A stretch of 35,713 bases of DNA from a virus: IMG/VR virus record IMGVR_UViG_3300007508_000022, positions 1 through 35,713 of that record; one strand, 5' to 3'. This document shows, one piece after another, positions 6,280-30,067 of the stretch. A model generated the notes under the pieces. That model saw only the letters and a list, made by a program, of their open reading frames with translations, was not told where the DNA came from and made no database searches. Numbering within the stretch: the first letter of the stretch is position 1; every line of letters starts with the position of its first letter. The translations under genes were made by a program, and so were the position numbers.

Positions 6280-6596
6280 TACTTATGTGCCAACAACATT
6301 TTCTTTAATGCGTTTTCTAATATGATATACATATTATTTAAAGTGTATTTATCATGTGAATTTTCATGTACAACAACTCCTATCCTATTCCAAGTCTCTA
6401 TAAGTGTTTTTGCTAGTTCAATACGCTCGGAATCTATCTTTTCAACAACTCTAGGCTTTGATTCCTTAACTACCTTAGGTTCTGCTGCCTTGTATACATC
6501 TACTTCCTTTACGTTAATCTTTATAGTAGCCTTTTCTTTCGGTTTCGTTTCCTCTTTTTTAATAATAAACTTTTTGGGCTCATTCTTCTTTACCAT
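6279..6596 (-). CDS. Small Lys/Glu-rich protein of the portal operon
   Basis: 105 residues. The first 50 are highly charged and disordered (KKNEPKKFIIKKEETKPKEK). The second half forms helices (ELAKTLIETWNRIGVVV, MYIILENALKKMLLAHK). It overlaps the end of the portal gene by 17 nt and the next gene by 1 nt, so it is translated from the portal transcript. Role unknown; possibly a head-neck or head-assembly accessory protein. Confidence 0.55.
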   Translation of the reverse strand: MVKKNEPKKFIIKKEETKPKEKATIKINVKEVDVYKAAEPKVVKESKPRVVEKIDSERIELAKTLIETWNRIGVVVHENSHDKYTLNNMYIILENALKKMLLAHK

Positions 6597-8532
6597 CTTC
6601 CCACCTCCTTACACTATCAAACTCATTCTTAACTAATTCTCTGGCACTTCTTACTGTCATCGCTGCATTCTTACGCAGTTCGCTTACAGTCTTTGATTTT
6701 GTCCAGCCAAAATCAACTGCCGTTTGCAGAGTATTTTTGACAATTTCGTAGTTCTTGGGATTAATACCGTCAGGAAATGACTTCCTACTAAGAGAAGTTC
6801 CACTTCCACTTGAAGGATGTCCTTGTCCAATTCCACCCACATCTGTAGGCAGTCTACTGCTTGGTTCCCCTTCGAAATCCTGTGTGTCTTCCTCAGGTGC
6901 TGCTGTTCCCCTACCTCTACCTTGTTTTTGCTCTGCACCCATCTGCAACATATCTTTTGCATTAAATGCCGTATCTTTCGATACCTTGAATTCGCCAGTA
7001 TGAGTTCGTGTAATATCAAATCCCATCGCTTGTAATGCTTGCATATTCTGGATTTCAACTCCTTGTATTTGCAAGTCTCTAAGGTGATCAGTTTCCTCAC
7101 CAGTCTTCAATCTTAATTCCCAATCATCTATGTTCAATAATGCTGCTATCTTTCTAAAGAATGACTTCATGAGGATGTCTTGACCCCATTTGATTGCTCT
7201 ATTCGTTATAGTAACTTGCAAACCCTCCTGTGACCAACCAGAAGGAAGTTCACCGTAATAGAGGGGTAAAACACCATATATAGCACCAATGATCATCCTT
7301 AATTCCTTTCTTATTGCAATAAATTCTAATTCCTTCAATGAACCAGTAAAGTCTAGCCATTGTGCCATATTCTTGCTTCCCTTGTCACTTTCAACCAATA
7401 ACGGATGAATCATGTAGGGGTCTTCTTGTGCTTTCTGCTCAAGAACGTCCATTGACTTTCTAAACGTTTCGTAGTTCCTTGATGCTATTACTAGTAATCC
7501 TCGTGGTGGTCTCATCTTGTCAAAGTACTTTCTTATGTATTCGTCCATGTGTGATAAGGACATTGCCTTAGACCATATTGAATAGATTGGTGAATAGCCG
7601 TATATAAGACTTGGTTTGTACTTTCCTGCTTTCCAGATAAGTTCACCCTCACCATATATAACTCTCTTAGGCTGTGGTATTCCTATGGAGTATACAGAGT
7701 TAACTTCTGCTACTGCTTTAAGGGCTTCTGCTCCACATCTTTCACATACAGGTTCTGATAGTCTTCTGTCTCTGTGTTCAAACTTTGGGCATACAAATAT
7801 TGGGTTTCTTTTATCATCATATCCTATTCTTCCATCAGAGTCAGCAATCATTGCTACCTGTGGTGGATCTACTCTAAGGAACTCTTTTATTTCTGTCCTG
7901 TCAGGATCTATCCTATTACTTGCATCGTCTATATAATAATTTTTTAATACTAAAAGATAAGCGTTGTCGGCAATCTCGAGATCTCTTTCCAACTGCCTTG
8001 CTACATCTTCTAGGTTTTGATCGTTACCATTAACTGGTGTATTTAATAATTCTTCTAATTTTGACCTATGTTCTGGAATAGGTCTTTTAAGGTCATTAGA
8101 ACCACAAGTATCACATTGTAATTCTGCCTGTTTTGCTTGTTTCTTAATATCACCTTTCTTTTTGGGTAATGCATTAAATGGCTCTGCATCATCATTACTT
8201 TCAAATGGCTGATCATCAGGTTTATCTCCTACTGCTGGTTCGTATTGAAACTCCTTTGAGCAGTTGGCACATTTATACTTCCATTTCTCCACTACTTCAA
8301 ATCCATTCTTAAACATCTCTCTGTTTAGTGTTTCTATTGGTATTCTTAATGCATCTATGTTATCTGCCAACTCATAAATCATTATAAGTGGGAATGGGAA
8401 TATTGGAAGTTTGGCACCAGTATCAGTGCTCATATAAGGTTGTGCTATGCTTGGTCTTGTTGTGGTTTCAGTATATGCTTTATTTGCAGTTCCTAACCTG
8501 AAAACACCTTTAATTGTATCTACAAATCCCAT
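6580..8532 (-). CDS. Portal protein with inserted zinc ribbons
   Basis: 650 residues, a typical length for an HK97/SPP1-type portal, the dodecameric ring through which DNA enters the capsid. The portal-like N-terminus starts around residue 45 (PFPLIMIYELADNIDALRIP) with NREMFKNGFEVVEKW. The core contains conserved-looking segments (YIRKYFDKMRPPRGLLVI; LRMIIGAIYGVLPLYYGE). Two zinc-binding insertions stand out: CANC paired with CDTC near residues 85-145, and CPKFEHRD paired with CERC near 245-270. The C-terminus has a charged helical segment after a Gly/Ser/Pro-rich linker. A TTTATAA box 28 nt upstream supports the start. The two downstream genes overlap in series. Confidence 0.75.
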   Translation of the reverse strand: MGFVDTIKGVFRLGTANKAYTETTTRPSIAQPYMSTDTGAKLPIFPFPLIMIYELADNIDALRIPIETLNREMFKNGFEVVEKWKYKCANCSKEFQYEPAVGDKPDDQPFESNDDAEPFNALPKKKGDIKKQAKQAELQCDTCGSNDLKRPIPEHRSKLEELLNTPVNGNDQNLEDVARQLERDLEIADNAYLLVLKNYYIDDASNRIDPDRTEIKEFLRVDPPQVAMIADSDGRIGYDDKRNPIFVCPKFEHRDRRLSEPVCERCGAEALKAVAEVNSVYSIGIPQPKRVIYGEGELIWKAGKYKPSLIYGYSPIYSIWSKAMSLSHMDEYIRKYFDKMRPPRGLLVIASRNYETFRKSMDVLEQKAQEDPYMIHPLLVESDKGSKNMAQWLDFTGSLKELEFIAIRKELRMIIGAIYGVLPLYYGELPSGWSQEGLQVTITNRAIKWGQDILMKSFFRKIAALLNIDDWELRLKTGEETDHLRDLQIQGVEIQNMQALQAMGFDITRTHTGEFKVSKDTAFNAKDMLQMGAEQKQGRGRGTAAPEEDTQDFEGEPSSRLPTDVGGIGQGHPSSGSGTSLSRKSFPDGINPKNYEIVKNTLQTAVDFGWTKSKTVSELRKNAAMTVRSARELVKNEFDSVRRWEDGKEE

Positions 8533-10341: not shown

Positions 10342-10831
10342 ACATTTATATTAGGTATTCACACACTATAAGCTGACGTATCAATCCCAGCGATCCAAAC
10401 AGTTATATTACCGAAAGGCTTATAAGCATTTGTGCACGGATCGGAACGTTTATATTAGGTATAATACATACCCATTCGGAACGTTTATATTAGGGTAGGC
10501 TATTTCAGGTGGTAATATATATGTTGCGATCAGGATAACATTTATATTAGGGCTTAATGTTTCGTTCATGTTGTATCAAAAAAATGTTATACAAAGGTTT
10601 ATATTAGGTAGCAAACCACTTAATAAGCTTAGTTCTATTAAACAAACAATAAGATTATATACCAATTACTTAAACAATACTGTTATTTATAGTGTTAGTT
10701 ATGCTTATATTATAGTAGTAAATGAACAGCGATCAAGTGCGATCACGGAAACATTTAAATTACGGAAAAAAACACAAAAAAGTTTTGAACGAATCACGAA
10801 AAATGCGATCAGCGATACATTTAAATTAGGG
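10342..10831 (+). promoter_or_regulatory. Array of eight TATA-like elements with GATC sites
   Basis: Eight copies of a block close to AACATTTATATTAGGG start near 10342, 10398, 10445, 10480, 10537, 10594, 10749 and 10817. Five of them have a GATC (10392, 10439, 10528, 10741, 10807) about 9-12 nt before the TATA core, often as GCGATC. The copy at 10537 is 27 nt before the ATG at 10568, and the copy at 10817 is 30 nt before the in-frame ATG at 10850. The other copies face no start codon at the expected distance. The array could be tandem promoters of the downstream operon, sites for small transcripts, or iterons of a replication origin. Confidence 0.6.
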
Positions 10832-11401
10832 ATTTGTGATTTTTTGCCCATGATGTCCGAAAATACTGATCAGAATTACGCCTTTATTGGTATTAATAAT
10901 ACTAATGATGGTTATCTCTATCAAGTTAAAAGTAAATCTGATAATGACATAGTATATACTATTGTTGTCAAGATAGTAGATGATGACCATATCAATACAG
11001 ATACTAGTATAGATATTGAATGTGAATGTTTGGGCTATAAACATAGAGAAAGGTGTTGGCATATAGATAAGATAAGGGGAGTGATAGAGCATAATTCTTA
11101 TTGTATAATGTGCCTAACACCTTTTCTCGATATAGTATTAAAGAACGCTGATTATACAGATAATACTATTGAATCAGTTAATGCTTATGATCAAGATGGT
11201 AAGAAGATATTAATTAATAAGGCAGGTAGTATGATGATACATAATGACTGTGTTATATATCTAGGGGAATTTGAATCATTAGGAGAAGATATTAGTAATA
11301 AAATCCAAGAGATTTATAAATCATTCTATAATAAAGACATAGAAAATTCCAAAGATTTATATGTGGATAACAAAAAAAGCGTGAGTGAGAAAAATGAATG
11401 A
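10568..11401 (+). CDS. SWIM-type zinc-finger protein
   Basis: 277 residues from ATG 10568, or 183 residues from the in-frame ATG at 10850; each has a TATA-like box about 27-30 nt upstream. The diagnostic motif is the SWIM signature CxCx7CxH (ECECLGYKHRERCWHI), followed by CIMC. SWIM domains bind zinc and act in DNA- or protein-binding contexts. A strand-rich segment (YLYQVKSKSDNDIVYTIVV) precedes it. The first 94 residues of the long form partly translate the repeated promoter elements (FILG, FKLR, FKLG), so they may not be a functional domain. It is the first gene of the long plus-strand operon and overlaps the next by 8 nt. Confidence 0.6.
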   Translation: MLYQKNVIQRFILGSKPLNKLSSIKQTIRLYTNYLNNTVIYSVSYAYIIVVNEQRSSAITETFKLRKKTQKSFERITKNAISDTFKLGICDFLPMMSENTDQNYAFIGINNTNDGYLYQVKSKSDNDIVYTIVVKIVDDDHINTDTSIDIECECLGYKHRERCWHIDKIRGVIEHNSYCIMCLTPFLDIVLKNADYTDNTIESVNAYDQDGKKILINKAGSMMIHNDCVIYLGEFESLGEDISNKIQEIYKSFYNKDIENSKDLYVDNKKSVSEKNE

Positions 11402-11699
11402 CAAAATTAGAGTAATGAATCAAACAGCAACATTACAAATACCCAATACCATAACAGGTAGTAAGGACATGAAGATAGAAATAAAGGTTGATGATAAATC
11501 AACAGTTCAATCTATCCTAGAACAAATAGATGATAAGGCATTACGCACTAAACTATTTGATAGTCGTGGTGATCCTAACAAGTTCCTATCTGTTATGCTG
11601 AATGGTAAGAGTATAGCTTTCCAAAATGGTATGGAAACTGTCGTTAAGGGTAGCGATCAGCTATACGTTTTACCTGTTGTAAGTGGGGGATCAATATGA
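11394..11699 (+). CDS. SAMP/MoaD-type ubiquitin-like protein with GG-SI tail
   Basis: 101 residues from ATG 11394; a GTG three codons upstream is less likely. The beta-grasp pattern of MoaD, Urm1 and archaeal SAMPs is visible: a helix after TVQSILEQIDD, then LSVMLNGKSIAFQNG, then KGSDQLYVLPVVSGGSI. In that family the C-terminal VSGG is adenylated by an E1-like enzyme, for sulfur transfer or for attachment to lysines. Here Ser-Ile follows the GG, so the tail would need trimming, as pro-ubiquitins do. No E1, E2 or JAMM peptidase was seen in the window, so host enzymes would be needed. It overlaps the next gene by ATGA. Confidence 0.65.
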   Translation: MNDKIRVMNQTATLQIPNTITGSKDMKIEIKVDDKSTVQSILEQIDDKALRTKLFDSRGDPNKFLSVMLNGKSIAFQNGMETVVKGSDQLYVLPVVSGGSI

Positions 11700-11893
11700 T
11701 CCCTTACATTTTTTCTATGACTAATGTAATGGCGAAGCCATTAAAGAGATGGATATGGAATAATATTATTGATACTAAATTAGGTTGGCATAATGATATA
11801 CAATGTGTGATAGATGAGATAGATATTGATGAGTTAATGAATGAAAGAGCTGAAGAATATAATACAGGATTACAGGAGTGTTATGACTTATGA
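11696..11893 (+). CDS. Small hypothetical protein
   Basis: 65 residues with aromatic-rich helices (PLKRWIWNNIIDTKLGWHND) and an acidic second half (IDEIDIDELMNERAEE). It is linked by ATGA overlaps both to the ubiquitin-like gene before it and to the GHKL ATPase after it, so it is co-translated with both. No family recognised. Its position makes it a candidate adaptor between the two. Confidence 0.55.
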   Translation: MIPYIFSMTNVMAKPLKRWIWNNIIDTKLGWHNDIQCVIDEIDIDELMNERAEEYNTGLQECYDL

Positions 11894-14364
11894 CAGATGA
11901 TTATTATATACCTGATGTAAAGAAGCCTAAGGATATATCTAATGATGTTGGTAAATATACAGGAGCTTTGAAAGAGTTTATTGATAGTGAAGATGGATCA
12001 ATCAAGGTTAAGTTAGAGCATGATGTTATAGTAGAAAGGGTAGCTAATACTATCTATACTTCATGGTTGTCAGGCATAAGAGAATTATTAACTAATGAAT
12101 TAAAGGCTTGTAAATTAGCTAGGGATAACTTCAATGCTAATCCTTACATGGTAATAACAATCAATCCTGTTGAAAGAAAATTAATTATACAAGGCTATGA
12201 TTCATTAGGTATAACTGCTGAACGATTCGGTAAGATAGTAGCATGGCTAGGTCGATCACATAATAAAGATAGGAATAGTATTGGTATGTTTGGCATGGGT
12301 ATTGAAGCTTATACTACATTAAGTAGCACGTTAAAGATAGAATCTAATCCAAGAGAATCGCCTGAAAACTTTACAGTATTAGGTAGAGATGGTAAGACAT
12401 GGCTACCATTAGAAGAAGCAACTAACATACCTTATGGTTGTAAATTAACTATGGTATTGAATAAAGATTTAGGCGATACTAAATTCTATAAACAATTAAT
12501 AGAAAGAGTTAAAGATGTAGTATCATTACATGGTATTCCTACTACCATACATTTAGAAGATGAAGTTGATGATGATGATGATTATAGTATTGGCAACCAT
12601 GAAGTAGAGTTATTAGATAAAGAAAGATATATGTTAAGACTAATAGATAGGGCTAATGAAAGAGAAAGATATTCTTATACTAATATAGATCATTCAACAA
12701 CTAAGACATTACATATAGATAATGATACTTATGATATTACTATTCTGTTTGCTAACAATAGTAATAGTAATGCTGATGTTAATGATGATTGTCATTTCTT
12801 TACTACGTTAATAGATGTTCCAATTAACAATGAATATAATAAGGGTAGCACTATTTCTAGTAAGATAAATGATCTTGAGCTTAATGGATTACTGTCTAGG
12901 TTTCCTAACTTCACAGGTATGTTAATCAACCTTAAAGATGAATCAATCTATCCACCTGTTGCTAGTAGAGATAGTCTTAAAGATGGTTGGCTAACTGATG
13001 AGATGTTAAGAGATAGTTATGATTTAGTTTGTGAATGGTATGATGAGAATAGAATTAATAAGTTAGATGAGTTATTTAATATGACTTCACAGGATATTAA
13101 TACATGGCATTGGTTGTATCAATATTCAGAAGATAGGAATGATGATGATGATGAAGATAAAAAACAATTAAAAGAATGTATTGATTTAAGATTTAATATC
13201 TATAAGGATAACAGAAAGAAGTATGATCACATAACATTCTTAGAGTTATTAACTCAATCATCTAGTCATGCTATTAATTATGATCATGTATTTTATATGT
13301 CTAACTTTTATAGGGATAAGATAGTTGGTATTGATGAGGAGCTAGGGGAAACCTGCACTTATATAAGATTAGCCTATAAAGATACTGATAAATATGTTGA
13401 TACATTAAACTATCTAGTTGAGAAGATGAATAAGTTATGTGATAAAGATGATATGTATTTCTATGATACTGTTAGTTGGTTAAAGAATAGAAAGGTTAAG
13501 ATAAAGATAAGACGAGTAGCTAGACCGAAAGGTAGTATAGTATGGCATTACAATAAGCTTAGCAACTATTCTTATGATGAAACACAGGTCAGCTCTAGTA
13601 TATATTATGATAAGAATAGACATGATGATTATAGTATGAAGGATATAATAGCAAAAAAAAAGATCAGGCTACAGCTTACAGAAAAGAGATGGGGGAAACA
13701 CAGATTGTCTATTGCTGATATAGTAGGTTTGTTAAATCAAATACCAACAGATATAATGTTTTGTAAAGCAGATACAGATTTAAATGCTAACTCGGTTGAT
13801 GATTATATTAAAGGTGTGATGAATAGGAATGTCTTTACAAGTCAGGGTAATTATAAGATGAATGAATTGTTAGATAAGTTTAGAGATACAGATGAGCTTG
13901 AAGTTAAGTTAGTTTATTATCCTTATTCTGATGTGATTAATGAGAAATGTTTTGGCACTAACAAGAAACAATTATACATATGTGCTAAGAATAATGATGA
14001 GTTAATTGGATTAGGATTAGCATTTATAACTGATGGATATATACATGACAAGGATTGGACTATTAACTATAATGATAAGGACATAATAGAGATAGATAGA
14101 TATGGTAGTGATTCTGTTAATATAGATGAGAAGATGAAAGTATTAATACCTGATGAAGTGATAGAGTTATTAAGTAGTAATAGGTTTATATCAAGATGGA
14201 AAAATGCTGAGCATAAAGGTTGTATGATATTAGCATTGGTTGATCTACATAGATCAATACCAAGTAAATTCTTTAATGATGTAGCTAGGTCATTAACTTA
14301 TGCTAATACATTCAAGGAGTTAAGTGATGAAGTTAAAAGAGTAAAGGAGTTATACCATGCCTAA
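11890..14364 (+). CDS. rIIA-like GHKL (Hsp90-type) ATPase
   Basis: 824 residues. The N-terminal Bergerat ATP-binding fold is complete: N box with Glu65 and Asn69 (RELLTNELKA), G1 box around Asp104 (YDSLGIT) and G2 box at 132-137 (GMFGMG). Near 355-365 the motif PPVASRDSLKD resembles the transducer-side segment of T4 rIIA-like proteins. The length is close to rIIA (about 725 residues). rIIA-type proteins are early phage proteins linked to blocking host exclusion systems; their chemistry is unsettled. The C-terminal half (about 400-824) is charged, has Asp-rich stretches and no recognised domain. The gene overlaps its neighbours at both ends (ATGA before, 8 nt after). Confidence 0.7.
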   Translation: MTDDYYIPDVKKPKDISNDVGKYTGALKEFIDSEDGSIKVKLEHDVIVERVANTIYTSWLSGIRELLTNELKACKLARDNFNANPYMVITINPVERKLIIQGYDSLGITAERFGKIVAWLGRSHNKDRNSIGMFGMGIEAYTTLSSTLKIESNPRESPENFTVLGRDGKTWLPLEEATNIPYGCKLTMVLNKDLGDTKFYKQLIERVKDVVSLHGIPTTIHLEDEVDDDDDYSIGNHEVELLDKERYMLRLIDRANERERYSYTNIDHSTTKTLHIDNDTYDITILFANNSNSNADVNDDCHFFTTLIDVPINNEYNKGSTISSKINDLELNGLLSRFPNFTGMLINLKDESIYPPVASRDSLKDGWLTDEMLRDSYDLVCEWYDENRINKLDELFNMTSQDINTWHWLYQYSEDRNDDDDEDKKQLKECIDLRFNIYKDNRKKYDHITFLELLTQSSSHAINYDHVFYMSNFYRDKIVGIDEELGETCTYIRLAYKDTDKYVDTLNYLVEKMNKLCDKDDMYFYDTVSWLKNRKVKIKIRRVARPKGSIVWHYNKLSNYSYDETQVSSSIYYDKNRHDDYSMKDIIAKKKIRLQLTEKRWGKHRLSIADIVGLLNQIPTDIMFCKADTDLNANSVDDYIKGVMNRNVFTSQGNYKMNELLDKFRDTDELEVKLVYYPYSDVINEKCFGTNKKQLYICAKNNDELIGLGLAFITDGYIHDKDWTINYNDKDIIEIDRYGSDSVNIDEKMKVLIPDEVIELLSSNRFISRWKNAEHKGCMILALVDLHRSIPSKFFNDVARSLTYANTFKELSDEVKRVKELYHA

Positions 14365-15109
14365 GATATTAGATTGTAATGATAATCATCTAACTATAAT
14401 GAATGATGATGGTAAGATTGAGATGGTATCTAATGATGAATACTATCATCTTAAATATGATCCTGCTAACATAGATAAAAGAGATAATGATAATAGAATC
14501 TTTCACTTCTATACTAGGACACAAAAGATACAGGAAACATACAATGATAAAATATTTAATCTTATGTTTAGTGGTGTGATACTACAAACAAGACAAGAAG
14601 AAGCTAATAAGATATGTCAGTTCATAAACAATGATGATTGTGCTTCCTTTATGAAATACTGTGGGGATAAGTATCAAGTTATTAACTGTAAAGAATTACT
14701 AATGAAACTGTTGTTTGCTTATGCAGATAGATTAAAGTTTAGGAAACGTGGCATAGTAATTGATGATAACTTTATGGTAGGCTATGATGGTGGAGCTCAT
14801 TATAAGAAAGGTAAAGGTTGGCATAGCTTATGTCTTGTAGTTGATGGCTACATAAGAGATAAGTTAATTGATACTGCTGTTGGAGCTATAAGAATGTCAA
14901 GACTACTACAAACTATCATGGTTAAGATAGGTTTCTGTCTTAAACCTAACATAAAAGATAGAGTATTCATGAATCAATTACCTGCTGATTTAAAGAGATG
15001 TATAACAGATGAAGTTAAACAAAAGGATAGAGAATTAAGAAAGAAACAGAAAGAAGCAGAAGCATTACTTAAACAATCAAGATTAGATGATGAGATGTAT
15101 GGTGTATAG
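14357..15109 (+). CDS. Hypothetical protein
   Basis: 250 residues, no recognised family. It has a polar N-terminus with short strands (LTIMNDDGKIEMVSND), a central mixed segment (LKFRKRGIVIDDNFMVGYDGG) and a hydrophobic helix (LIDTAVGAIRMSRLLQTIMV). A charged coiled-coil-like tail ends it (KQKDRELRKKQKEAEALL). The start overlaps the end of the GHKL ATPase by 8 nt, so the two are probably made together in fixed proportion. This recalls the rIIA-rIIB pairing in T4, although no similarity to rIIB could be seen. Confidence 0.55.
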   Translation: MPKILDCNDNHLTIMNDDGKIEMVSNDEYYHLKYDPANIDKRDNDNRIFHFYTRTQKIQETYNDKIFNLMFSGVILQTRQEEANKICQFINNDDCASFMKYCGDKYQVINCKELLMKLLFAYADRLKFRKRGIVIDDNFMVGYDGGAHYKKGKGWHSLCLVVDGYIRDKLIDTAVGAIRMSRLLQTIMVKIGFCLKPNIKDRVFMNQLPADLKRCITDEVKQKDRELRKKQKEAEALLKQSRLDDEMYGV

Positions 15110-15111
15110 AT

Positions 15112-15315
15112 ATGTATGTTAAATCAAAAGATGTTCAAAGAATAAGATATAATAACATAGGTGTGATTGAAATACTTAGAACATTCTTACCTAAATCTTT
15201 ACCAACAGATTATGATATAGGATATAATAAATTTGTTATAATGATTAAGAAACTAGAAGAATCTGATAATATATTATTATATGGTCTTGATAGAAAAGAT
15301 GATTGGAGTAAATGA
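15112..15315 (+). CDS. Small hypothetical protein
   Basis: 67 residues, basic N-terminus (MYVKSKDVQRIRYNN), then helices (VIEILRTFL, FVIMIKKLEESDNILLYGL). It starts 2 nt after the previous stop and ends 1 nt before the next start. No function recognised. Confidence 0.5.
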   Translation: MYVKSKDVQRIRYNNIGVIEILRTFLPKSLPTDYDIGYNKFVIMIKKLEESDNILLYGLDRKDDWSK

Positions 15316-15316
15316 T

Positions 15317-15787
15317 ATGAATAAACAAGAGAAGATTATATTTGAAAACAAAAAGAAAAAATTAATTGAGCTTGGATTCTTTCTTGATCCTAATTTAAAT
15401 AAAGAAGATTGGCATATATATAATTGGAAAGCAGGTGGTTGGAATAATAAAGATAACAAATGGGTTAATCCTGCTAGACTATTAAATAAAATTTATCCTG
15501 TTGTTAATGATAGGCTAGAATATATGTGGCTACACATGAATTATTATATTGCTACCAAGACAGATGTAGATAGACAATGCCATGCTTGTCATGGAACATT
15601 AAGTCGTAAGCGTATTGAAGTTAATGATTTAATAGTAAGGAATGGTAAGGGAGCTAACTTCAATAGTTATCATGTGCCATGTGCTATTAATATAATAGTA
15701 GAGATGATAGATACATTAATAACTATACCAAAAAGAAATGCTTTACTTGATGACATACTAAAGGAACAAGAGATGAGAAAACAATGA
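15317..15787 (+). CDS. Putative zinc-binding protein
   Basis: 156 residues from ATG 15317, chosen because it follows the previous stop directly. An N-terminal Trp- and Asn-rich region (WHIYNWKAGGWNNKDN) precedes a zinc site: CHACHGTLSRKRIE, then HVPCAINI about 30 residues on, giving a C-x2-C...H-x2-C arrangement as in HNH-like or treble-clef folds. No HNH catalytic pattern is evident, so a structural zinc finger is more likely. Role unknown. Its stop overlaps the next small gene. Confidence 0.55.
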   Translation: MNKQEKIIFENKKKKLIELGFFLDPNLNKEDWHIYNWKAGGWNNKDNKWVNPARLLNKIYPVVNDRLEYMWLHMNYYIATKTDVDRQCHACHGTLSRKRIEVNDLIVRNGKGANFNSYHVPCAINIIVEMIDTLITIPKRNALLDDILKEQEMRKQ

Positions 15788-15900
15788 CAGATATAATAAT
15801 AATAGGAGATGAGAATAATAAAATTAAAAAGAAAATAAATAAATTATTAAAAGAAAAACAATTAGACAAACACTTTAAGGTTAAGGATAATGATAGATAA
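15784..15900 (+). CDS. Mini protein, 38 residues
   Basis: MTDIIIIGDENNKIKKK..., a short strand then a basic helix. It overlaps the previous gene by ATGA and the next by 11 nt, continuing the chain of coupled genes. Function unknown. Confidence 0.4.
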   Translation: MTDIIIIGDENNKIKKKINKLLKEKQLDKHFKVKDNDR

Positions 15901-16015
15901 GATAGGGTTTAAACTATGGTGGTGGGAACAACAAGCTAAAGAAGAATTAGAAAAAATAAAAAGCGATCGGCGAAAGATTTATATTCCGAAAAAAAAATGT
16001 GAGGAAAATGAATAA
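15890..16015 (+). CDS. Mini protein, 41 residues
   Basis: It starts MIDKIGFKLWWWEQQ and ends KKKCEENE. It overlaps the mini gene before it and the gp88-like gene after it (8 nt). Its second half carries a promoter element on the same strand, so this stretch could be mainly regulatory rather than coding. Confidence 0.35.
   Translation: MIDKIGFKLWWWEQQAKEELEKIKSDRRKIYIPKKKCEENE
15964..15987 (+). promoter_or_regulatory. Internal promoter before the gp88-like gene
   Basis: GATC at 15964 is followed by GATTTATATTCCG with its TTTATAT at 15978-15984. The box is 30 nt before the ATG at 16008 and matches the GATC-plus-TATA layout of the 10.3-10.8 kb array. It would allow separate expression of the second half of the operon. 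Confidence 0.55.
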
Positions 16016-16889
16016 AAATTTAATTGAAACAATCATTCGATCTTATTATGATAATGATAAAGATAAATTAAATTTCTTTATACCATTAGTTCAGAATAAA
16101 ATAAAAACATTAAAGGAAGCTAATACAATAGCAGGAACATTAAGTAAGACAAGTAAAATGCCATGCCGATCATATGGTATAACAGCTAAGGCTTGTCAAA
16201 CAGGAGAAGTAATGAAGCAATTAAATAAACAGAAATTAAATATTACTTGTCAGCATGATGTTGAAGTGGCATTGTTAGATGGTAAGCTCATACCTACCTG
16301 TGCCTTATGCTATTGTGATGACAATGGTAATTATAATTATCCTAGTGTTAAGAGTGCATTGAATAGAAGATTGATATCTATTACTGATCCATTATGGATA
16401 GAAGCATTAGTATATATGATTAACAATGAACAGAAGAAAGGCTATGATTATTTTAGGTGGCATGATAGTGGAGATATACAAAGCTTACAACATTTAGAAC
16501 AGATAGTGGTAGCCTGTATTTGTACACCATTTGTTCGCCATTGGTTGCCTACGCTAGAAGCAGGTAGTCATATAGCTACATTCGTTCAGAAATATGGTAG
16601 TATAGATAAGATATCTAATCTTGTTGTAAGGGCTTCAACGCCATTCATTAATGCTAGACCAATGCCAAATAAAAATGTTGGTGTTAGGTCTAGTGTAGTT
16701 ATTGCAGATGAAAGAACATTAAGAAAAGAGATGGTAGAGTTTATGAATGATAATATATGTCCAGCTAAGTTAGGAGATGGTACGTGTGGAGATTGTAGAA
16801 AGTGTTGGGATAAAGATATAGATGTAATAAGTTATCCATTGAAATTAAGTGGATATATGTTAGGGGTTAAGGGGTTGGTATTACAATGA
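16008..16889 (+). CDS. Gp88-family phage protein
   Basis: 293 residues. Features seen in the phage 'gene product 88' family are present: an early KMPCRSYGITAKACQTG, then CALCYCDDNGNYNYPSVK, then FRWHDSGDIQSLQH, and a late cysteine cluster CPAKLGDGTCGDCRKCW. The eight or more conserved Cys suggest a metal site. The family occurs in many tailed phages and its biochemical role is not known to me. The ATG at 16008 is chosen over a GTG at 15999 because the internal TATA box lies 30 nt upstream of it. The end overlaps the next gene by ATGA. Confidence 0.65.
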   Translation: MNKNLIETIIRSYYDNDKDKLNFFIPLVQNKIKTLKEANTIAGTLSKTSKMPCRSYGITAKACQTGEVMKQLNKQKLNITCQHDVEVALLDGKLIPTCALCYCDDNGNYNYPSVKSALNRRLISITDPLWIEALVYMINNEQKKGYDYFRWHDSGDIQSLQHLEQIVVACICTPFVRHWLPTLEAGSHIATFVQKYGSIDKISNLVVRASTPFINARPMPNKNVGVRSSVVIADERTLRKEMVEFMNDNICPAKLGDGTCGDCRKCWDKDIDVISYPLKLSGYMLGVKGLVLQ

Positions 16890-17368
16890 TGACAGTAGAT
16901 GAAGCTTATGAGAAAGATGAGAAACAACCTAGACCAAAAGGATCACCTACATGGTATGATATTAGAGAACAACAAGAAGAACAAGTTAAGAATGGATTAG
17001 CTAGTATATTATTGTCTAGGGGTATGACAGGAGAACAAAGGTTAAAATCATTAGAAGGATTGGCTATGATATACATTAACATACCTGATGATGATGATGT
17101 AAAGAGTGTTATTGATGGGTTTGCTAATCATATATGTCATGAGTGTGGAGAAATATGCACAGAAAGTGTAGATGAAGAACATGATGATACATATATTATC
17201 TGTGGTGGTGGTAGTAGATTAGTGTTTAAAGATGAATCTAAAGGAGTTGGTAATAGTATAGATGAATTTCATAATAATCTAACATACACAAAATCTAACA
17301 ACTGTAAGAATAAAGGCGAAGAAAGTATGGGTATCACATTAATAGTGGAGAAGTTAAAGAATGGCTAA
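16886..17368 (+). CDS. Zinc-finger protein, unknown
   Basis: 160 residues. A helical N-terminal half (EQVKNGLASILLSRGMTG, SLEGLAMIYINI) precedes a zinc site HICHECGEICTE paired with IICGGGSRLV near residues 85-115. The rest is polar. It starts by ATGA overlap with the gp88-like gene and overlaps a mini zinc ribbon at its end. No family recognised. Confidence 0.55.
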   Translation: MMTVDEAYEKDEKQPRPKGSPTWYDIREQQEEQVKNGLASILLSRGMTGEQRLKSLEGLAMIYINIPDDDDVKSVIDGFANHICHECGEICTESVDEEHDDTYIICGGGSRLVFKDESKGVGNSIDEFHNNLTYTKSNNCKNKGEESMGITLIVEKLKNG

Positions 17369-17471
17369 TCGTGTTAAGGATTATCATTGGGTTAATTGTG
17401 GTGGTTGTGGTAGATTTGTTAGTTGGATTAACCCTGATGAATGTAAGAAGTGTGAGGATTGGGGAGTATAA
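17361..17471 (+). CDS. Mini zinc ribbon, 36 residues
   Basis: MANRVKDYHWVNCGGCGRFVSW, then CKKCEDWGV: a four-Cys ribbon and almost nothing else. It overlaps the previous gene by 8 nt and the next by 1 nt (TAATG). The conserved spacing of cysteines supports its being translated. Confidence 0.5.
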   Translation: MANRVKDYHWVNCGGCGRFVSWINPDECKKCEDWGV

Positions 17472-17614
17472 TGCCTAGTATATATTGTAATGATTGTGGT
17501 GGAGAAATTAATGTGAATATAGATTATGGTTTAAATCCTATTGATGATATGATTAATAAATTAAAACAAATGGGTTATGTTGTATTCAAGAAAAAGGTGG
17601 TAAAAAATGCTTAA
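17471..17614 (+). CDS. Mini protein with half zinc knuckle, 47 residues
   Basis: MPSIYCNDCGGEINVNID followed by a helix and a basic end, KQMGYVVFKKKVV. Only one CxxC is present, so zinc binding would need a dimer or a partner. It is coupled by overlap to the MoxR gene (8 nt). Confidence 0.5.
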   Translation: MPSIYCNDCGGEINVNIDYGLNPIDDMINKLKQMGYVVFKKKVVKNA

Positions 17615-18494
17615 AGGACAGATTAAGGAAAAGAGTATTCCATTTGCATACATGGATTATGAGCAAGTTAATCCTGCTAACATTGTAAATTGGGGAGATT
17701 ATATCGATAACAGGGGGGAGAAAAAAGAAATAACAGATTTGATATTAACAGGTAAGCATAATGTTTTATTAGAGGGAGAAAAAGGAACAGGTAAAACATT
17801 ATTAGTATATGATATATGCAGAAAAAATAACATACCTTTATTTGAAATGAGTTGTGGAGCTGGTATGAATAAGGGAGATATAATAGGTCGCCCACAAATA
17901 GACAATGATGGATCATATTTTGAGATGGGATTTCTTCCTAAAGCATTTGAGTTAGCAAACCATTGGAAGAATTTAGTATTCTATCTTGATGAGTTTAATG
18001 TATTACCACATGATGAGCAGATAAGGTTTAATAAACCACTAGATAAAAGACGTTCAGTATATGCAAATGGTAGAGAATTTAGATTAGATGATGGTGTAAA
18101 GATAACATTCGTAGCAACAATCAATCCTATTAATTATGGTGGTGTTAATACTCTAACAGAATCAATTAGGTCTAGGTTTATAGGAAAGGTATTACCATAT
18201 CCCTCGACAACTGAATTGCTTAAGTTAATAGATTGGTCAGATATACCTGATGAAACTAGGGATTGCCTACTAACACTATGTCAGCAGATAGTTGGGTTAA
18301 GGAATAAAGGTCAGGTTGATTATATATTCTCTCCAAGAGATATAGACCAATTTTGTGATGTATATAGAACATATATATCTACATGGAAGTTAGAAGATGT
18401 GTTAAACAATGTGATACTAATCAAGTATAGTGATTCACAGGAAAGAGAACAGGTAAGGATAAGAATAAATGAAACGTTTGGAGTGAATATATGA
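17607..18494 (+). CDS. MoxR-type AAA+ ATPase
   Basis: 295 residues. The AAA+ core is complete: Walker A at 57-64 (GEKGTGKT), Walker B at 127-131 (LDEFN), sensor 1 ATINP and an arginine finger region SIRSRFIGK. The MoxR hallmark GDIIGRP follows the Walker A helix. MoxR ATPases act as chaperones that remodel a target together with a VWA-domain partner. That partner is almost certainly the zincin-VWA protein encoded 0.6 kb downstream in the same operon. It ends by ATGA overlap with the next gene. Confidence 0.8.
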   Translation: MLKGQIKEKSIPFAYMDYEQVNPANIVNWGDYIDNRGEKKEITDLILTGKHNVLLEGEKGTGKTLLVYDICRKNNIPLFEMSCGAGMNKGDIIGRPQIDNDGSYFEMGFLPKAFELANHWKNLVFYLDEFNVLPHDEQIRFNKPLDKRRSVYANGREFRLDDGVKITFVATINPINYGGVNTLTESIRSRFIGKVLPYPSTTELLKLIDWSDIPDETRDCLLTLCQQIVGLRNKGQVDYIFSPRDIDQFCDVYRTYISTWKLEDVLNNVILIKYSDSQEREQVRIRINETFGVNI

Positions 18495-18730
18495 TGAGAT
18501 GTAAAGAATGTGGGAATGTATTTAAAAAACCAAATCAAAACCCTAATACTAGAAGATGTTGGAGTGAATTTAATATGTGTGTTACGTGTGCGACTATTAA
18601 ATACCCTGAAAAGTTTGCTAAAAGGGATAGATTATCAACACTAGCTAAAGCAGGTGTATATAAATCCCCAAAAAAGAAAATCAGAAAAGATGGTAGACAT
18701 ATAGTTCATAGGGTGGGTGGTGTAGAATAA
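18491..18730 (+). CDS. Small basic zinc-finger protein
   Basis: 79 residues: MRCKECGNVFKKPNQNP, then CVTCATIKYPEK. A four-Cys ribbon is followed by a strongly basic tail (KSPKKKIRKDGRHIVHRVGG), which suggests nucleic-acid binding. ATGA overlap with MoxR and TAATG overlap with the following gene. Confidence 0.55.
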   Translation: MMRCKECGNVFKKPNQNPNTRRCWSEFNMCVTCATIKYPEKFAKRDRLSTLAKAGVYKSPKKKIRKDGRHIVHRVGGVE

Positions 18731-19020
18731 TGCAACTACAACAAAGCAGTAATTGGAATATAGATGAGTTTGAATTAGTGAACAGTTGGCATTACTGTAA
18801 AGCTGATATGCTAGAGGGTGTGCCTATGCACCTATGTGAGTATGATGGAAAGAAAAGGATTCATTCCAAAGCAAAGGGATTTAGATTTGAATTGTTTGAT
18901 GTTAAGAACAATCCTCTTATCATGGAATGTTGGTTTGAGAATACGACAGGTAAGGCTAAGGCTTCAGGAGCTAAGGCTATGTTAAAGATATACATGAGGA
19001 AAGATAGAAATGAAGTGTAA
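18730..19020 (+). CDS. Hypothetical protein
   Basis: 96 residues lying between MoxR and its probable VWA partner. Strand-rich central part (KGFRFELFDVKNNPLIMECWF) and a basic end (AMLKIYMRKDRNEV). No family recognised; placement suggests it may belong to the MoxR-VWA complex. Confidence 0.55.
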   Translation: MQLQQSSNWNIDEFELVNSWHYCKADMLEGVPMHLCEYDGKKRIHSKAKGFRFELFDVKNNPLIMECWFENTTGKAKASGAKAMLKIYMRKDRNEV

Positions 19021-19132
19021 GAGATGTGGATCAAAAGATGTGGTGTCAGGAGAAACCAAAGGATTTAGAACATATATCTGTGATGATTGTGATTATGAAT
19101 GGTATGTAAAAAAACGAGGAAGTAATGACTAG
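19010..19132 (+). CDS. Mini zinc ribbon, 40 residues
   Basis: MKCKRCGSKDVVSGET, then CDDCDYEWYVKKR. The spacing and the final CxxCxxxW resemble the TFIIS/RPB9-type zinc ribbon found in archaeal transcription factors, but the catalytic acidic hairpin of TFIIS is not seen. It overlaps both neighbours, by 11 nt upstream and 8 nt downstream. Confidence 0.55.
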   Translation: MKCKRCGSKDVVSGETKGFRTYICDDCDYEWYVKKRGSND

Positions 19133-20795
19133 GGATAGAGAATTAGTATCTGACACAGAAAGGAATAGGGCATTAATTGATATAATAGAAAATATAAAAA
19201 ACTGTAATATAAAATTAACAACAGGACAAGATAGTTCTGTTAAGGAAACAGGTAAAATAGATAACATAGTTAGTCAATATATTATAAAATTAGCTAGCCC
19301 TGCAATAAAAGGAATTGAATCATTTACAGCATTAAACCATGAGTGTTGGCATATATTATTTGATAGTCAATTTAGAATAATACATAATATTCTTGGGAGT
19401 TGGACTGACAATAGAAATGAAAGAAATAAATTTACTTATTATAAATTTACTCTTAACCTATTAGAAGATACAAGGATAGAATCATTGGGTGGAAAGATAT
19501 GGTTAGGAACAGGTAAAAGATTTTTAAAGATGAGGAAAAAACGAGGAGAATATATATTTGTAGATGAGAAAATACATAAAGAAAAATGGGAGTGGAAACC
19601 AACTAAAGATTCTCCACCTAATGTAATGCTTATGATAAGATTTATGCAAGGAGATAAATGGAAGAAAAATAAATACTACAATGCAATGAAACAAGCATTA
19701 GAAGATGTTGAACTAACAGGTAAGTTTGGTAGCATTAAAGTAATGCTAAAAATAAAACCATTGTTAGATGAATGGTGGGAAGATAATATTCTTGATGACC
19801 ATAAAAATATACCTCGACAGATGTTTGTTACTGACCAAACTAAAGATTGGATGGGAGATGAAGCCACCCCAGAAAATGTAAATGACTTACAGGATAACAT
19901 ATCTGATGATTTAGAAGAAGAAATTAAGAAAGAAAAGGAAAATGGTAAAGATATCATTAAAGAAATAAATGATAAGTTAAGTGATTCCAACCGAACAGAT
20001 GATAATGATGATGTTAGTTATGTTAGATATGTAGATAGACCTGAAGCTGAAGCAACATATAATGAAAGAATATCTAATTCAATGAGAAAATTATTTAGAA
20101 AACTCTCCATGATACCAAGAGAAAGAATAAACGATCAGGGTAATGAGATAGATATAGAATCATTTATTATGAATAAAATAGAGATGAAGAATTTAAACGA
20201 GTGTTTGATAGACAAAAAATTAGAAAGGGGTATTTGTTTGTTACTAAGTGTAGATGTATCAGCTTCAATGCAGGGAAGAAAAATAAGTACAGCAAGGAAT
20301 CTTGTTGGAACATTATTTAAATCGGTTGAGGGGTTAAATAATGTTGATATAAAGGCTCAAACTTGGTCATCAAATAGTGAGGGAAAAATAACAATAGAAG
20401 AGATAGAAGATTATGATGATGTTAAGAGTGTGAATTGTGGATATGGTGGGGAAACGCCTACACATTTAGCAATAGACTATGCAGTAAGAACAGCTAAAAG
20501 AATGAGGGGAGAAAAGAAATTAATAATCATATTAACAGATGGACACCCACAATATCATAAAAACAACTATAGATTCTATCTTAAACAACTGATAACAATG
20601 ACACAGAAATCATTACAGAGGGCATTAAAACACACACCTAATATAATGTGTATTCATATAGGAGAAAAGAGTGAGATACCACTAATGCGAGAGATATTTG
20701 GCTCAAGATTCATACATACAAATGGTGTTAATGAAGCTTCCGAAAGAATTATAAAGGAGTTCAAATCATTGGTAATAAGGACGATGTTAAAATGA
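19125..20795 (+). CDS. Zincin-like metallopeptidase plus VWA protein
   Basis: 556 residues. The N-terminal part has a zincin signature: HECWH at 72-76 with a downstream LLEDTRIE (113-119) that supplies the usual glutamate. An acidic linker (about 240-300) leads to a von Willebrand A domain with an intact metal-ion site: DVSAS (377-381), Thr446 (GETPTHLA) and Asp472 (ILTDGHPQ). This architecture matches the metallopeptidase-VWA proteins that pair with MoxR ATPases (DUF2201/CobT-like). The motor would unfold or remodel substrates; whether the zinc site cleaves them is not established for the family. Its likely motor is the MoxR gene at 17607. The last 4 nt overlap the next gene. Confidence 0.75.
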   Translation: MTRDRELVSDTERNRALIDIIENIKNCNIKLTTGQDSSVKETGKIDNIVSQYIIKLASPAIKGIESFTALNHECWHILFDSQFRIIHNILGSWTDNRNERNKFTYYKFTLNLLEDTRIESLGGKIWLGTGKRFLKMRKKRGEYIFVDEKIHKEKWEWKPTKDSPPNVMLMIRFMQGDKWKKNKYYNAMKQALEDVELTGKFGSIKVMLKIKPLLDEWWEDNILDDHKNIPRQMFVTDQTKDWMGDEATPENVNDLQDNISDDLEEEIKKEKENGKDIIKEINDKLSDSNRTDDNDDVSYVRYVDRPEAEATYNERISNSMRKLFRKLSMIPRERINDQGNEIDIESFIMNKIEMKNLNECLIDKKLERGICLLLSVDVSASMQGRKISTARNLVGTLFKSVEGLNNVDIKAQTWSSNSEGKITIEEIEDYDDVKSVNCGYGGETPTHLAIDYAVRTAKRMRGEKKLIIILTDGHPQYHKNNYRFYLKQLITMTQKSLQRALKHTPNIMCIHIGEKSEIPLMREIFGSRFIHTNGVNEASERIIKEFKSLVIRTMLK

Positions 20796-21040
20796 CATTA
20801 AATGATAGAGAGAAATTTATATTACATTTGGTAGCCCTAATGACAATGCAACATTTTGGTATGTTTGAAGATGCTAAGGGATTACATGAATTGGTTAGAA
20901 AAAATAGGTGTAGACAACTAACCAGAGATGATATTAAAAAATTATTTGATGAGATACAAGAAGAAATGTTAGTAGGTAAGACTATTTATGAGATTGTTGA
21001 TTTTGGTATCTCTGGATTTGATAAAGAAGATGGTAGATAA
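20792..21040 (+). CDS. Small helical protein, unknown
   Basis: 82 residues, all-helical in appearance (EKFILHLVALMTMQHFGMF, DIKKLFDEIQEEMLVG). It is coupled by ATGA overlap to the zincin-VWA gene. No family recognised; possibly an accessory subunit. Confidence 0.55.
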   Translation: MTLNDREKFILHLVALMTMQHFGMFEDAKGLHELVRKNRCRQLTRDDIKKLFDEIQEEMLVGKTIYEIVDFGISGFDKEDGR

Positions 21041-21252
21041 TGGTATTCTGTCATATTTGTTTAAAATTTCAAAATGGAAACCTAGCTAGTAGGGAAAAAG
21101 AAAAATTAAATGCTAGGTCAGTAAGTAAGTTAGAACAACCAAACTTTCTTAATTTCGATAGACTTATATTATGTACAGATTGCTGGAAGAATGTTAAGAA
21201 GATGGAAGTTCATAAGGCTAAAGCTGAGAGTTGTAGAGGGAAATTTTTTTAA
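21040..21252 (+). CDS. Small zinc-binding protein
   Basis: 70 residues: CHICLKFQNG near the start, and LCTDCWKNVKK about 45 residues later, forming a long-loop four-Cys site. Basic overall. TAATG overlaps at both ends. Confidence 0.5.
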   Translation: MVFCHICLKFQNGNLASREKEKLNARSVSKLEQPNFLNFDRLILCTDCWKNVKKMEVHKAKAESCRGKFF

Positions 21253-21458
21253 TGTGTAATGGACATTGCCCTACGTTTGAAAGAATGTTTGAAGCACACC
21301 ACTACTGTCAAGCTTGTAGAAGGTTTATAGGAGAAACAAATCTTTACAGGGAAGAAAGAACTGATGGTAGATTGCGTTGCTCATGCTGTCATGGTTTGGT
21401 AAGAAACAAAGTAAGATTCTATACTAAGCAATCGACCACTCTGCCCACTGTAGATTAA
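21252..21458 (+). CDS. Small zinc-binding protein, last gene of operon
   Basis: 68 residues: CQACRRFIGETN, then CSCCHGLVRNK, with an additional MCNGHC at the N-terminus. A basic, ribbon-like protein. It ends the run of overlapping plus-strand genes and overlaps the convergent zincin gene tail-to-tail by 35 nt. Confidence 0.5.
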   Translation: MCNGHCPTFERMFEAHHYCQACRRFIGETNLYREERTDGRLRCSCCHGLVRNKVRFYTKQSTTLPTVD

Positions 21459-21681
21459 ATATCACGTCTTCTTCCATTTGTTCATCCATATTATCTGATT
21501 CGTCTATTACAGTGAAACAATGATGGAATACTTCATGGTTTATTGTCTTAATAACGTCTTCCATAGTTTCATGCATGGGTAGGAATATTAAACACCTATT
21601 AGTTTCCTCAAAATATATGCCCCTATTATCAGCGTGTTGGACTTTAAAATCCACCGATAGATTACCACCTTTTAAACTCAT
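21424..21681 (-). CDS. Small zincin-like protein
   Basis: 85 residues containing HEVFHHCF (HExxH) preceded by a helix (METMEDVIKTIN-like), with a later acidic helix EQMEEDVIFNLQWAEW that can provide the third ligand. This layout is that of minimal phage zincins related to SprT/IrrE-type domains. No signal peptide, so it acts inside the cell or in the virion. A TTTAAAT box lies 32 nt upstream. It stands beside the operon that also encodes the larger zincin-VWA protein. Confidence 0.55.
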   Translation of the reverse strand: MSLKGGNLSVDFKVQHADNRGIYFEETNRCLIFLPMHETMEDVIKTINHEVFHHCFTVIDESDNMDEQMEEDVIFNLQWAEWSIA

Positions 21682-29137: not shown

Positions 29138-29542
29138 TTATTTTTCTTTCAGAATCTGTGTTATAAATAACAACTGATCAATTATTTTGGATCTGATTTG
29201 ACCGAATACGTGTGTGTTTACATCTTGTTCAGGATATAAATCCTTTGTTCTATGATGTGCAGTTACCATATACTCATCCCAAACATCAGCCACTTTCTTT
29301 ACGTTGTCACTCGCTGTGGCTTCAGGAACTTTTGTTACGATAACTTGATCCCTGAATGATGTGAATGAATTTTTTGTTTGTGGTCTTATTGTGTCAAGAG
29401 TTCCATTTTGTTTTTGGAAGCAATCATAGTCACTACATATAGCTTTCGGCTGTTTCTGATAGTAAATCTCATCGCTTACTCTCCACTCTTCTCCACACAG
29501 TTTACACATTCCGTCATACTTTGCAGATATTTTTGTACCCAT
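29138..29542 (-). CDS. Zinc-ribbon protein divergent from the methylase
   Basis: 134 residues from ATG 29542, chosen because a TTTATAT box lies 30 nt upstream; an in-frame ATG at 29587 would lie upstream of that box. An N-terminal zinc ribbon (CKLCGEEWRVSD, then CSDYDC) is followed by a helical body (VKKVADVWDEYMVTAHH; RSKIIDQLLFITQILKE). It shares a 36-bp divergent promoter with the adenine methyltransferase and may be its regulator or partner; that is inference. Confidence 0.55.
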   Translation of the reverse strand: MGTKISAKYDGMCKLCGEEWRVSDEIYYQKQPKAICSDYDCFQKQNGTLDTIRPQTKNSFTSFRDQVIVTKVPEATASDNVKKVADVWDEYMVTAHHRTKDLYPEQDVNTHVFGQIRSKIIDQLLFITQILKEK

Positions 29543-29578
29543 GAAAGTCTTATATATTATGCCATATATAAACCTTTC
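29543..29578. promoter_or_regulatory. 36-bp divergent promoter with interleaved TATA boxes
   Basis: On the plus strand CTTATATATTA (about 29549-29559) lies 28-29 nt before the ATG at 29579. On the minus strand TTTATATATGG (about 29562-29572) lies 30 nt before the ATG at 29542. The boxes are so close that the two promoters may exclude each other. Confidence 0.6.
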
Positions 29579-30043
29579 ATGTTGCACCGAAAGAAAAGGA
29601 GTGAAGCCAGTTTATCTGATGATTATAAAACACCACAGGGTTTGTATGTACGTCTTTGTTTAGAGTATAATATTGAGCCAGAACTTGATGTGTGTGCCAA
29701 TCCAAATAACACACAATGTGATAGACATATTGGAGAGTCTAGAAATGCTCTTGCCATTGACTGGTCATGGGATGCATGGTGCAATCCACCACATAGTAAA
29801 ACAGGTGCGTTTGTCAAGAAAGCTTATGAGCAATGGAGAAAAAATAATATAAATATAATGATGATTATTCCTGCCAACGCAGTTTCATCTAACTATTGGC
29901 ATGAGTTCATAGAAGGTAATGCAGAGTACCACCCCATTCATGGTAGGATAAGATTCCTCATTCCCAATGATGAAGACGTTTATATATCTTCAAATTTCAT
30001 GAGTAGGAATGCATATATCTGTGTGATTTTTCGTCAAATATAA
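29579..30043 (+). CDS. Dam-type DNA N6-adenine methyltransferase
   Basis: 154 residues from ATG 29579. It matches the short phage Dam family: an early DDYKTPQGLYVRL, a core ELDVCANPNNTQC, the catalytic NPPHS (the NPPY/F position), then FVKKAYEQWRK and MMIIPANAVSSNYWHEF, ending FMSRNAYICVIFR. Family members usually methylate adenine in GATC. Possible roles are protection from host restriction and marking of GATC sites, which are dense near the 10.3-10.8 kb promoter array. Target specificity cannot be read from the sequence alone. Confidence 0.8.
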   Translation: MLHRKKRSEASLSDDYKTPQGLYVRLCLEYNIEPELDVCANPNNTQCDRHIGESRNALAIDWSWDAWCNPPHSKTGAFVKKAYEQWRKNNINIMMIIPANAVSSNYWHEFIEGNAEYHPIHGRIRFLIPNDEDVYISSNFMSRNAYICVIFRQI

Positions 30044-30067
30044 TAAGCATTAATATGAAAAGTATAT

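Follow-up and report, generated by a model that had tools for sequence, protein, structure and literature searches.

The window analysed here is IMG/VR virus record IMGVR_UViG_3300007508_000022 over its full length of 35,713 bases, and its subject of interest is an operon of about 20 overlapping genes that run on one strand from 10.85 to 21.46 kb. Nearly all gene junctions lie between -35 and +2 nucleotides (nt), which agrees with a preliminary description made from the sequence alone. Table 1 compiles the features of the operon. The protein families named in that description (SWIM, ThiS/SAMP-type, GHKL, GP88, MoxR and zincin-VWA) were recovered by Pfam, by motif patterns and by comparing a profile with the PDB. 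It had counted roughly nine zinc-ribbon proteins; eight small proteins have CxxC pairs (g7, g9, g9b, g10, g12, g13b, g16 and g17; seven come from our table of junctions and motifs, and g13b was added from its translation). Two sets of genes are distinguished below: module A, which comprises a diglycine-tailed (GG) protein, an Hsp90-type GHKL ATPase and g5, a conserved partner of the ATPase that the preliminary description had not singled out, and module B, which comprises the MoxR-type ATPase and the zincin-VWA protein.

Table 1. Features of the operon and of the region upstream of it, in window coordinates.
Feature	Position	Strand	Length (amino acids, aa)	Module	Remarks
Promoter-like array	10345..10830	+			Upstream of, and overlapping, open reading frame (ORF) 10568-11401
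SWIM-type zinc-finger protein	10850..11401	+	183 (from revised start)		CxC..CxH pattern
ThiS/SAMP-type ubiquitin-like protein	11385..11699	+		A	C-terminus VVSGGSI; PF02597 3.4e-8
g3	11696..11893	+	65		Homologue in L181
Hsp90-type GHKL ATPase	11890..14364	+	824	A	RELLTNELKAC, DSLGI and GMFGMG boxes
g5	14357..15109	+	250	A	Just downstream of the GHKL gene
g6	15112..15315	+	67		Seen only in near-identical contigs
g7	15281..15787	+	168		One CxxC
Internal promoter-like motif copy	15963..15985	+			Exact GCGATC-N9-TTTAWATT, ahead of GP88
GP88-family protein	16008..16889	+			ORF also open from GTG 15999; PF17338 2.4e-22
g9, g9b, g10	16886..17614	+			Three small CxxC proteins
MoxR-type AAA+ ATPase	17607..18494	+		B	PF07728 4.3e-17; PHROG 249 1.8e-15
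g12, g13, g13b	18491..19132	+			Small proteins, two with CxxC pairs; g13b at 19010-19132
Zincin-VWA protein	19125..20795	+	556	B	PF00092 3.2e-9; HECWH, LEDTRIES, and DVSASM of the metal ion-dependent adhesion site (MIDAS)
g15	20792..21040	+			Comes after VWA in relatives G403, G405, G408, G409, G410 and G414; also in G412 and L182
g16 and g17	21040..21458	+			Small CxxC proteins; g17-type proteins widespread in the virus group

The window also encodes MCM and RadA, a prohead-protease domain and a caudovirus portal (matched by PHROG 18178 at 6e-35). It comes from an archaeal caudovirus, in which the operon forms a region of early type, placed between the gene of the portal and those of the replication proteins RadA and MCM. 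The archaeal setting of the preliminary description was thus confirmed: MCM and RadA are archaeal, the best matches of MCM are archaeal tailed viruses, and on these two proteins an archaeal host can be assigned firmly. RadA is unspecific as to the host, with 38-45% identity in 13 of 14 genomes. Near-full-length portal homologues occur in two of 400 Nitrososphaerales genomes, and, of the 17 further genomes of this order with a match, most have a module of about 50 residues from the portal tail, so the host probably belongs to the Thaumarchaeota, among marine ammonia-oxidising archaea. The last 50 or so residues of the portal (6580-8532, minus strand) match short, sometimes repeated stretches in many Nitrososphaerales proteins, and this C-terminal module is apparently common to the virus and its possible host. 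Three near-identical IMG/VR contigs together cover the operon piecewise. The largest related records reach 65 kb, and the window is therefore probably a fragment of a larger genome.

Scans of viral contigs with single GHKL, VWA, MoxR or GP88 proteins returned near-identical contigs only. Divergent viral loci (L numbers below, as for chromosomal loci) were found with alignments that included chromosomal homologues and then with a portal alignment, whose scan kept 80 of 176 loci, at least three of the 80 coming from near-identical viruses. A search of 40 viral records with the GHKL profile gave nine matches; two of the matching records are nearly identical to the window, which leaves seven others. 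Thirteen large related records (G403-G415) were taken whole and scanned with iteratively built profiles, and the chromosomal survey covered the 400 Nitrososphaerales genomes.

To the preliminary description the whole gene set looked like a single integrated machine, a reading that conserved order in relatives would support and that scattered genes or mere independent pairs would refute. Relatives show that modules A and B are inherited apart. Among the 13 large records, MoxR and zincin-VWA genes are present in ten (G403, G404, G405, G407, G408, G409, G410, G411, G414 and G415), GHKL and g5 in two (G409 and G412), and both modules in G409 alone. G412 has GHKL, g5 and GP88 but no MoxR-VWA pair between them and radA, while G406 and G413, which end a few kb past the portal gene, have neither module. 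L182 and L183 have MoxR and VWA genes, the former without upstream sequence and the latter without a GHKL gene between portal and MoxR; L181 reads GG protein, zinc protein, GHKL, g5, small ORF and MoxR, and its contig ends 1.3 kb later. Module A is found in seven other viral records (g5 in four of them, the remaining contigs ending too early) and in four Nitrososphaerales chromosomal loci with no MoxR pair nearby. Eight of the 400 genomes have GHKL homologues and eight have VWA homologues, with zero overlap. The nine large MoxR-VWA records searched for ThiS gave no match, and neither did G409, which was searched separately; among all ten, a GG tail is present in G409 only. Where both modules are present they do have the same order, and the linkage of the ubiquitin-like protein to GHKL is conserved, but what most relatives carry are independent pairs. 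In the window the modules probably do no more than share a neighbourhood, in which a known pair stands beside an under-described one, and we do not regard them as a single new machine.

The same observations bear on a system in which the ubiquitin-like protein would tag targets, the GHKL ATPase would open them, and MoxR and zincin-VWA would extract and cut them. The window and G409 agree in the order of the modules, as L181 does in part; the eukaryotic AAA protein Mdn1, whose MIDAS domain is established to bind ubiquitin-like domains (PMC8837202), offers a precedent; and L188 carries a precursor-like fusion of a GG-tailed ubiquitin-like protein to a HAD-like domain. Such a system is nonetheless quite unlikely given that the GHKL module is missing from every large MoxR-VWA record but G409, that ThiS is absent from all nine others, that chromosomal loci have the GG-GHKL-g5 cassette without MoxR-VWA, and that G412 has the arrangement described above. 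The Mdn1 precedent makes a bridge between the modules conceivable, but the GG protein goes with GHKL and not with MoxR-VWA.

Within module A, the window GHKL ATPase alone has no Pfam match at E<=0.1. The 14-row GHKL profile reaches 4e-9 against PDB structures of Hsp90 N-domains. This match spans profile positions 57-224 of 744 only and does not extend to the middle and C-terminal dimerisation domains of Hsp90 proper; together with the motif boxes it identifies a Bergerat-fold N-domain with N, G1 and G2 boxes. A tblastn search of the phage collection with the window protein found nothing. In the GHKL tree, the five viral rows cluster (100/99) on very long branches, and recent transfer between virus and chromosome is not shown by this tree. 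Two single genomes of the order Nitrososphaerales (L170 and L171) have three GHKL copies each within 20 kb, with repeated neighbour genes in L171.

The g5 gene comes after GHKL in five viral cases (the window, L181, L217/G409, L232 and G412) and in the chromosomal loci L164, L165, L167, L168 and, for one copy, L171; more distant g5-like proteins are encoded near GHKL in L166, L169 and L170. A g5 search of 398 genomes of the phylum gave only two matches, both in genomes already known, and most forks of the g5 tree are unresolved. Pfam and PHROGs give weak single-member matches, with no RIIB family among the PHROG matches. A role of g5 as a ubiquitin receptor, raised by a Pfam match to the Rpn13 Pru domain (0.011), was dropped since the match appears in only one of 13 members. 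The AlphaFold2 model of g5 has a mean predicted local distance difference test score (pLDDT) of 76.7. Against PDB folds it has no match at E<=0.001 (the best VIA-align Z, 5.2, is within the chance range). Foldseek against viral models gives three matches at 8e-8 to 1e-5 with low TM-scores of 0.27-0.43, and two of these come from Halogranum tailed virus 1 (HGTV-1), being equated with its genes 167 and 207 by length only; matches to T4 y05I-like N-terminal domains, which bear on a relation to rIIB, are weak (E 0.03-0.05).

In HGTV-1, the GHKL profile finds gene 172, annotated as "HSP90 chaperone", at 9e-20, and the g5 profile finds gene 167, about 1.5 kb away, at 2e-5, so a GHKL/g5-like neighbourhood exists in a cultured archaeal virus. 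Gene 203 is also found by the GHKL profile, weakly (6e-6) and over a short stretch. This larger, second GHKL-like gene belongs to locus L313 (HGTV-1 96766-99378 and 100513-101529), where the possible g5-like gene 207, matched to the fold hit by length only, stands three genes on. The cassettes of L164, L167 and L168 lie downstream of a large ATPase ORF (900, 813 and 847 aa, respectively) and of small membrane proteins that, by eye, look like conjugation genes; thaumarchaeal integrative-conjugative elements with VirB4/VirD4 ATPases are known (described in PMC6563490).

The third member of module A is the GG protein. In the window it matches PF02597 at 34.4 bits (cut-off 22.5) and aligns with chromosomal SAMP/MoaD-like proteins, and by these comparisons it is a ThiS/SAMP-type ubiquitin-like protein with a beta-grasp domain. 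In the relatives, the small protein encoded upstream of the GHKL gene has the tail [FL]PxVxGG, with SI after it in some; GG is terminal in L181, L217, L222, L233, L164, L165, L167 and L168, and SI follows it in the window. The tail motif, fixed as [FL]P.[VI][SVA]GG(..)?, was looked for in 6,409 distinct ORFs with lengths of >=60 aa; it is present in ten, and all ten lie within 3 kb upstream of a same-strand GHKL gene. These upstream zones hold 186 ORFs, which gives a hypergeometric p of 3e-16, a value that overstates the linkage because the motif was picked after the sequences had been seen and the rows are related. A GG protein is present in six of the seven other viral GHKL records and in four of the eight chromosomal GHKL loci (L164, L165, L167 and L168). 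The corresponding tail in L210 is a variant, GVSAVGGG, and lies 40 nt ahead of the GHKL gene there; the G412 record begins inside the GHKL gene and has no GG-tailed ORF in its last 2.3 kb.

This linkage also bears on a reading in which the ubiquitin-like protein carries sulfur in the manner of ThiS, MoaD or Urm1, serving tRNA thiolation or the synthesis of a cofactor, and stands beside GHKL and g5 only incidentally. Its best Pfam match is indeed ThiS, it aligns with chromosomal MoaD/SAMP-like proteins, and known Hsp90 and rIIA systems need no ubiquitin-like protein. A housekeeping carrier, however, would need no linkage, and distant viruses and chromosomal loci alike have a GG-tailed protein ahead of GHKL-g5; the Pfam scans of its window neighbours recognised no partner enzyme for such a carrier. 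We consider a sulfur carrier unlikely.

Among 14 records searched, the sole ThiS match is the relative in L188 (46-982, minus strand). By eye, one ORF there holds a window-type ubiquitin-like protein whose LPAISGG tail runs on (SDVPP...) into a HAD-phosphatase-like domain, and this fusion could be a precursor that is cut after GG. HAD-like ORFs that stand by themselves are found in L182 (60-551) and L222.

Module B consists of adjacent MoxR AAA+ and vWA genes, with three small genes between them in the window. The MoxR Walker A is present in the rows listed. HExxH is found in 14 of 19 long VWA rows, including all 12 of the viral group, and DxSxSM in all 19; the rows without HExxH are L174, L175, L176, L179 and L177, the last being cut at a contig end. 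In the pairs of L174, L175, L176 and L179, where the VWA protein has lost HExxH, the AAA Walker B reads LEEVG. The window VWA protein gave no homologue by tblastn against the phage collection, and the MoxR search of plasmids gave distant generic MoxR proteins only. The operon Pfam scan turned up no third component of VMAP, iSTAND or FtsH type, no dedicated profile having been run for them. MoxR plus metallopeptidase-vWA pairs have been described in jumbo phages of group 2.2, with a proposed role in virion assembly (Iyer et al. 2021, PMC7824862), and module B is therefore a kind of pair already described. The same source ties a MoxR-vWA system without a peptidase to tail development of an Acidianus virus. 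Both the jumbo-phage pair and that of the window place MoxR beside a vWA protein with an N-terminal metallopeptidase in a tailed virus, whereas the window group is archaeal and has the pair between portal and RadA/MCM, together with g15/g17.

GP88 is an add-on, as are the small zinc proteins. The window GP88 matches PF17338 at 80.4 bits (cut-off 24.4). It was confirmed in five of the 15 records searched, at differing positions: in the window and G409 it precedes MoxR, and in G405 and G415 it follows VWA. Relatives of GP88 occur in 16 bacterial phage records, and none of the ten neighbourhoods viewed has the gene set. In Caulobacter phage Seuss, annotated rIIA and rIIB genes lie a few kb from the GP88 relative.

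The best overall explanation, to which we give a probability of about 0.5, is that of two separately inherited modules, module A being an Hsp90-like takeover or counter-defence cassette and module B a virion-assembly chaperone-peptidase. From the parts of module A and their linkage, which are observed, we infer its actions as follows. The GHKL protein would be a dedicated Hsp90-type clamp that dimerises on ATP around clients, g5 would be its adaptor, and the GG-tailed protein, once activated by a host E1 (UbaA-like), would tag or adapt those clients. The cassette would act on host proteins early in infection, its aim being host takeover, which is plausible for the operon, or counter-defence as proposed for phage rIIA (PMC7824862, in outline). 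In module B, the VWA MIDAS would pick the substrate, MoxR would remodel it and the zincin would cut it, most simply in the service of virion assembly, where virion proteins would be remodelled and trimmed.

Several results weigh against this reading. PHROG RIIA models match one and two of the 14 GHKL members, at a marginal 0.012-0.017, and the annotated rIIA of phage Seuss is missed by the GHKL profile even at E<=10. The rIIA-like ATPase of the preliminary description is upheld as a GHKL protein, its rIIA link being weak, and we call it Hsp90-type, which on these comparisons is the safer name. No GG-tailed ORF is seen at the chromosomal GHKL loci L169, L170 and L171, nor at L166, of which there are only 3.2 kb. 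The window tail, GGSI, would require trimming before use. No viral E1 was seen, although no search was aimed at E1. PF02597 has no match in the six viral records searched for GG proteins other than that of the window, profile comparison of the relatives' GG proteins with ThiS aligns the 12-residue tail alone, and the AlphaFold2 model of the L232-type protein is unusable (pLDDT 43.6). Most relatives thus share only the tail with the window protein and may or may not have a ubiquitin-like fold.

It is possible, though in our view doubtful, that the GG proteins other than that of the window are not ubiquitin-like at all, their tail being a recognition or cleavage signal, and that the window virus swapped in a true ubiquitin-like protein. 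The tail-only alignment, the missing ThiS match and the low-confidence model speak for this; on the other side, these proteins agree with the window protein in position and in the [FL]PxVxGG tail, and have a predicted order of helix then strands, at useless model confidence. We regard as improbable a more far-reaching scheme of ubiquitin-like modification by archaeal viruses and mobile elements, in which a GG modifier, conjugated through a host E1, would join the GHKL clamp and g5 to mark and disarm host defence or takeover targets, and some viruses would pass the marked proteins to MoxR-zincin-VWA, with the MIDAS reading the ubiquitin-like fold.

Compared with known systems, module A resembles HGTV-1 in having a GHKL domain (gene 172) near a g5-like protein, whereas gene 172 is shorter (529 aa) and no GG-tailed protein of the module A type was seen in that virus; an Hsp90 chaperone is listed for both HSTV-2 and HGTV-1 in PMC8651126. 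T4 rIIA/rIIB likewise pairs a GHKL ATPase, variable in its C-terminal part, with a partner encoded next to it, and differs in the RIIA, Seuss and rIIB comparisons reported above. The window protein shares a ThiS match and the PxVxGG tail with archaeal SAMP/MoaD/ThiS proteins; it is viral, has two residues after GG, and has its linkage with a GHKL ATPase, not with E1 or molybdopterin genes. Borg elements, according to the description in PMC12660748, carry one SAMP together with many deSAMPylases, which are JAMM proteases, and are thus mobile archaeal genomes that interfere with SAMP modification; unlike in the window, the SAMP as described there has no Hsp90/GHKL partner.

What is new, and the part worth pursuing, is the linkage of the GG protein, GHKL and g5; in the open-licence literature we found no description of a viral GHKL/Hsp90 ATPase linked with a protein that is GG-tailed or ubiquitin-like. 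To our knowledge, viral Hsp90/rIIA-type ATPases have long been without known clients or co-factors, and the link, found in viruses and in mobile-element-like loci of ammonia oxidisers, provides a concrete and testable set of partners. Should the GG tail serve in conjugation, archaeal mobile elements would use protein modification and not only remove it. Module B adds an archaeal virus group that has the MoxR-peptidase-VWA pair close to a core gene.

The operon had been said to start at 10568, and this start was revised. ORF 10568-11401 runs back through the promoter-like array, and the shorter homologues in L181 and L188, judged by eye, place the likely start of gene 1 at ATG 10850. The array has five exact TTTATATTAGG sites (10345, 10449, 10484, 10541 and 10598, spanning 10345-10608); with <=1 mismatch allowed there are 13 sites against 2.46 expected. 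Exact GCGATC-N9-TTTAWATT sites are found upstream at 10526, 10739 and 10805 and, with the internal copy, number four in the whole window against 0.04 expected. As read from the sequence, the first T of the TATA-like element lies 30 nt before the ATG both at the last upstream site (ATG 10850) and at the internal site (ATG 16008). These sites probably act as promoters, and leaderless starts at both ATGs are the simplest reading. A gap of 220 nt separates g7 from the GP88 ATG and contains the exact motif copy, so that at least two promoters and more than one transcript are likely.

Homologues of the SWIM-type protein occur in L181, L188, L210, L241, G403 and G414. In L183 the SWIM-type gene (13665-13981) is downstream of the VWA gene, whereas that of the window precedes MoxR, which indicates that the gene order around the modules varies. 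Homologues of g12 were found among the large related records. Elsewhere in the window, 29378-30898 on the plus strand encodes a Dam-type adenine methyltransferase (Pfam 2.4e-25) and, after it, a metallopeptidase that resembles matrixins and scores below the Pfam cut-off. Just past the operon, on the minus strand (21424-21681), lies the gene of a conserved 85-aa HEVFH protein, a very small zincin-like protein with a weak Pfam similarity to DUF3920, whose homologues are present in most of the large records.

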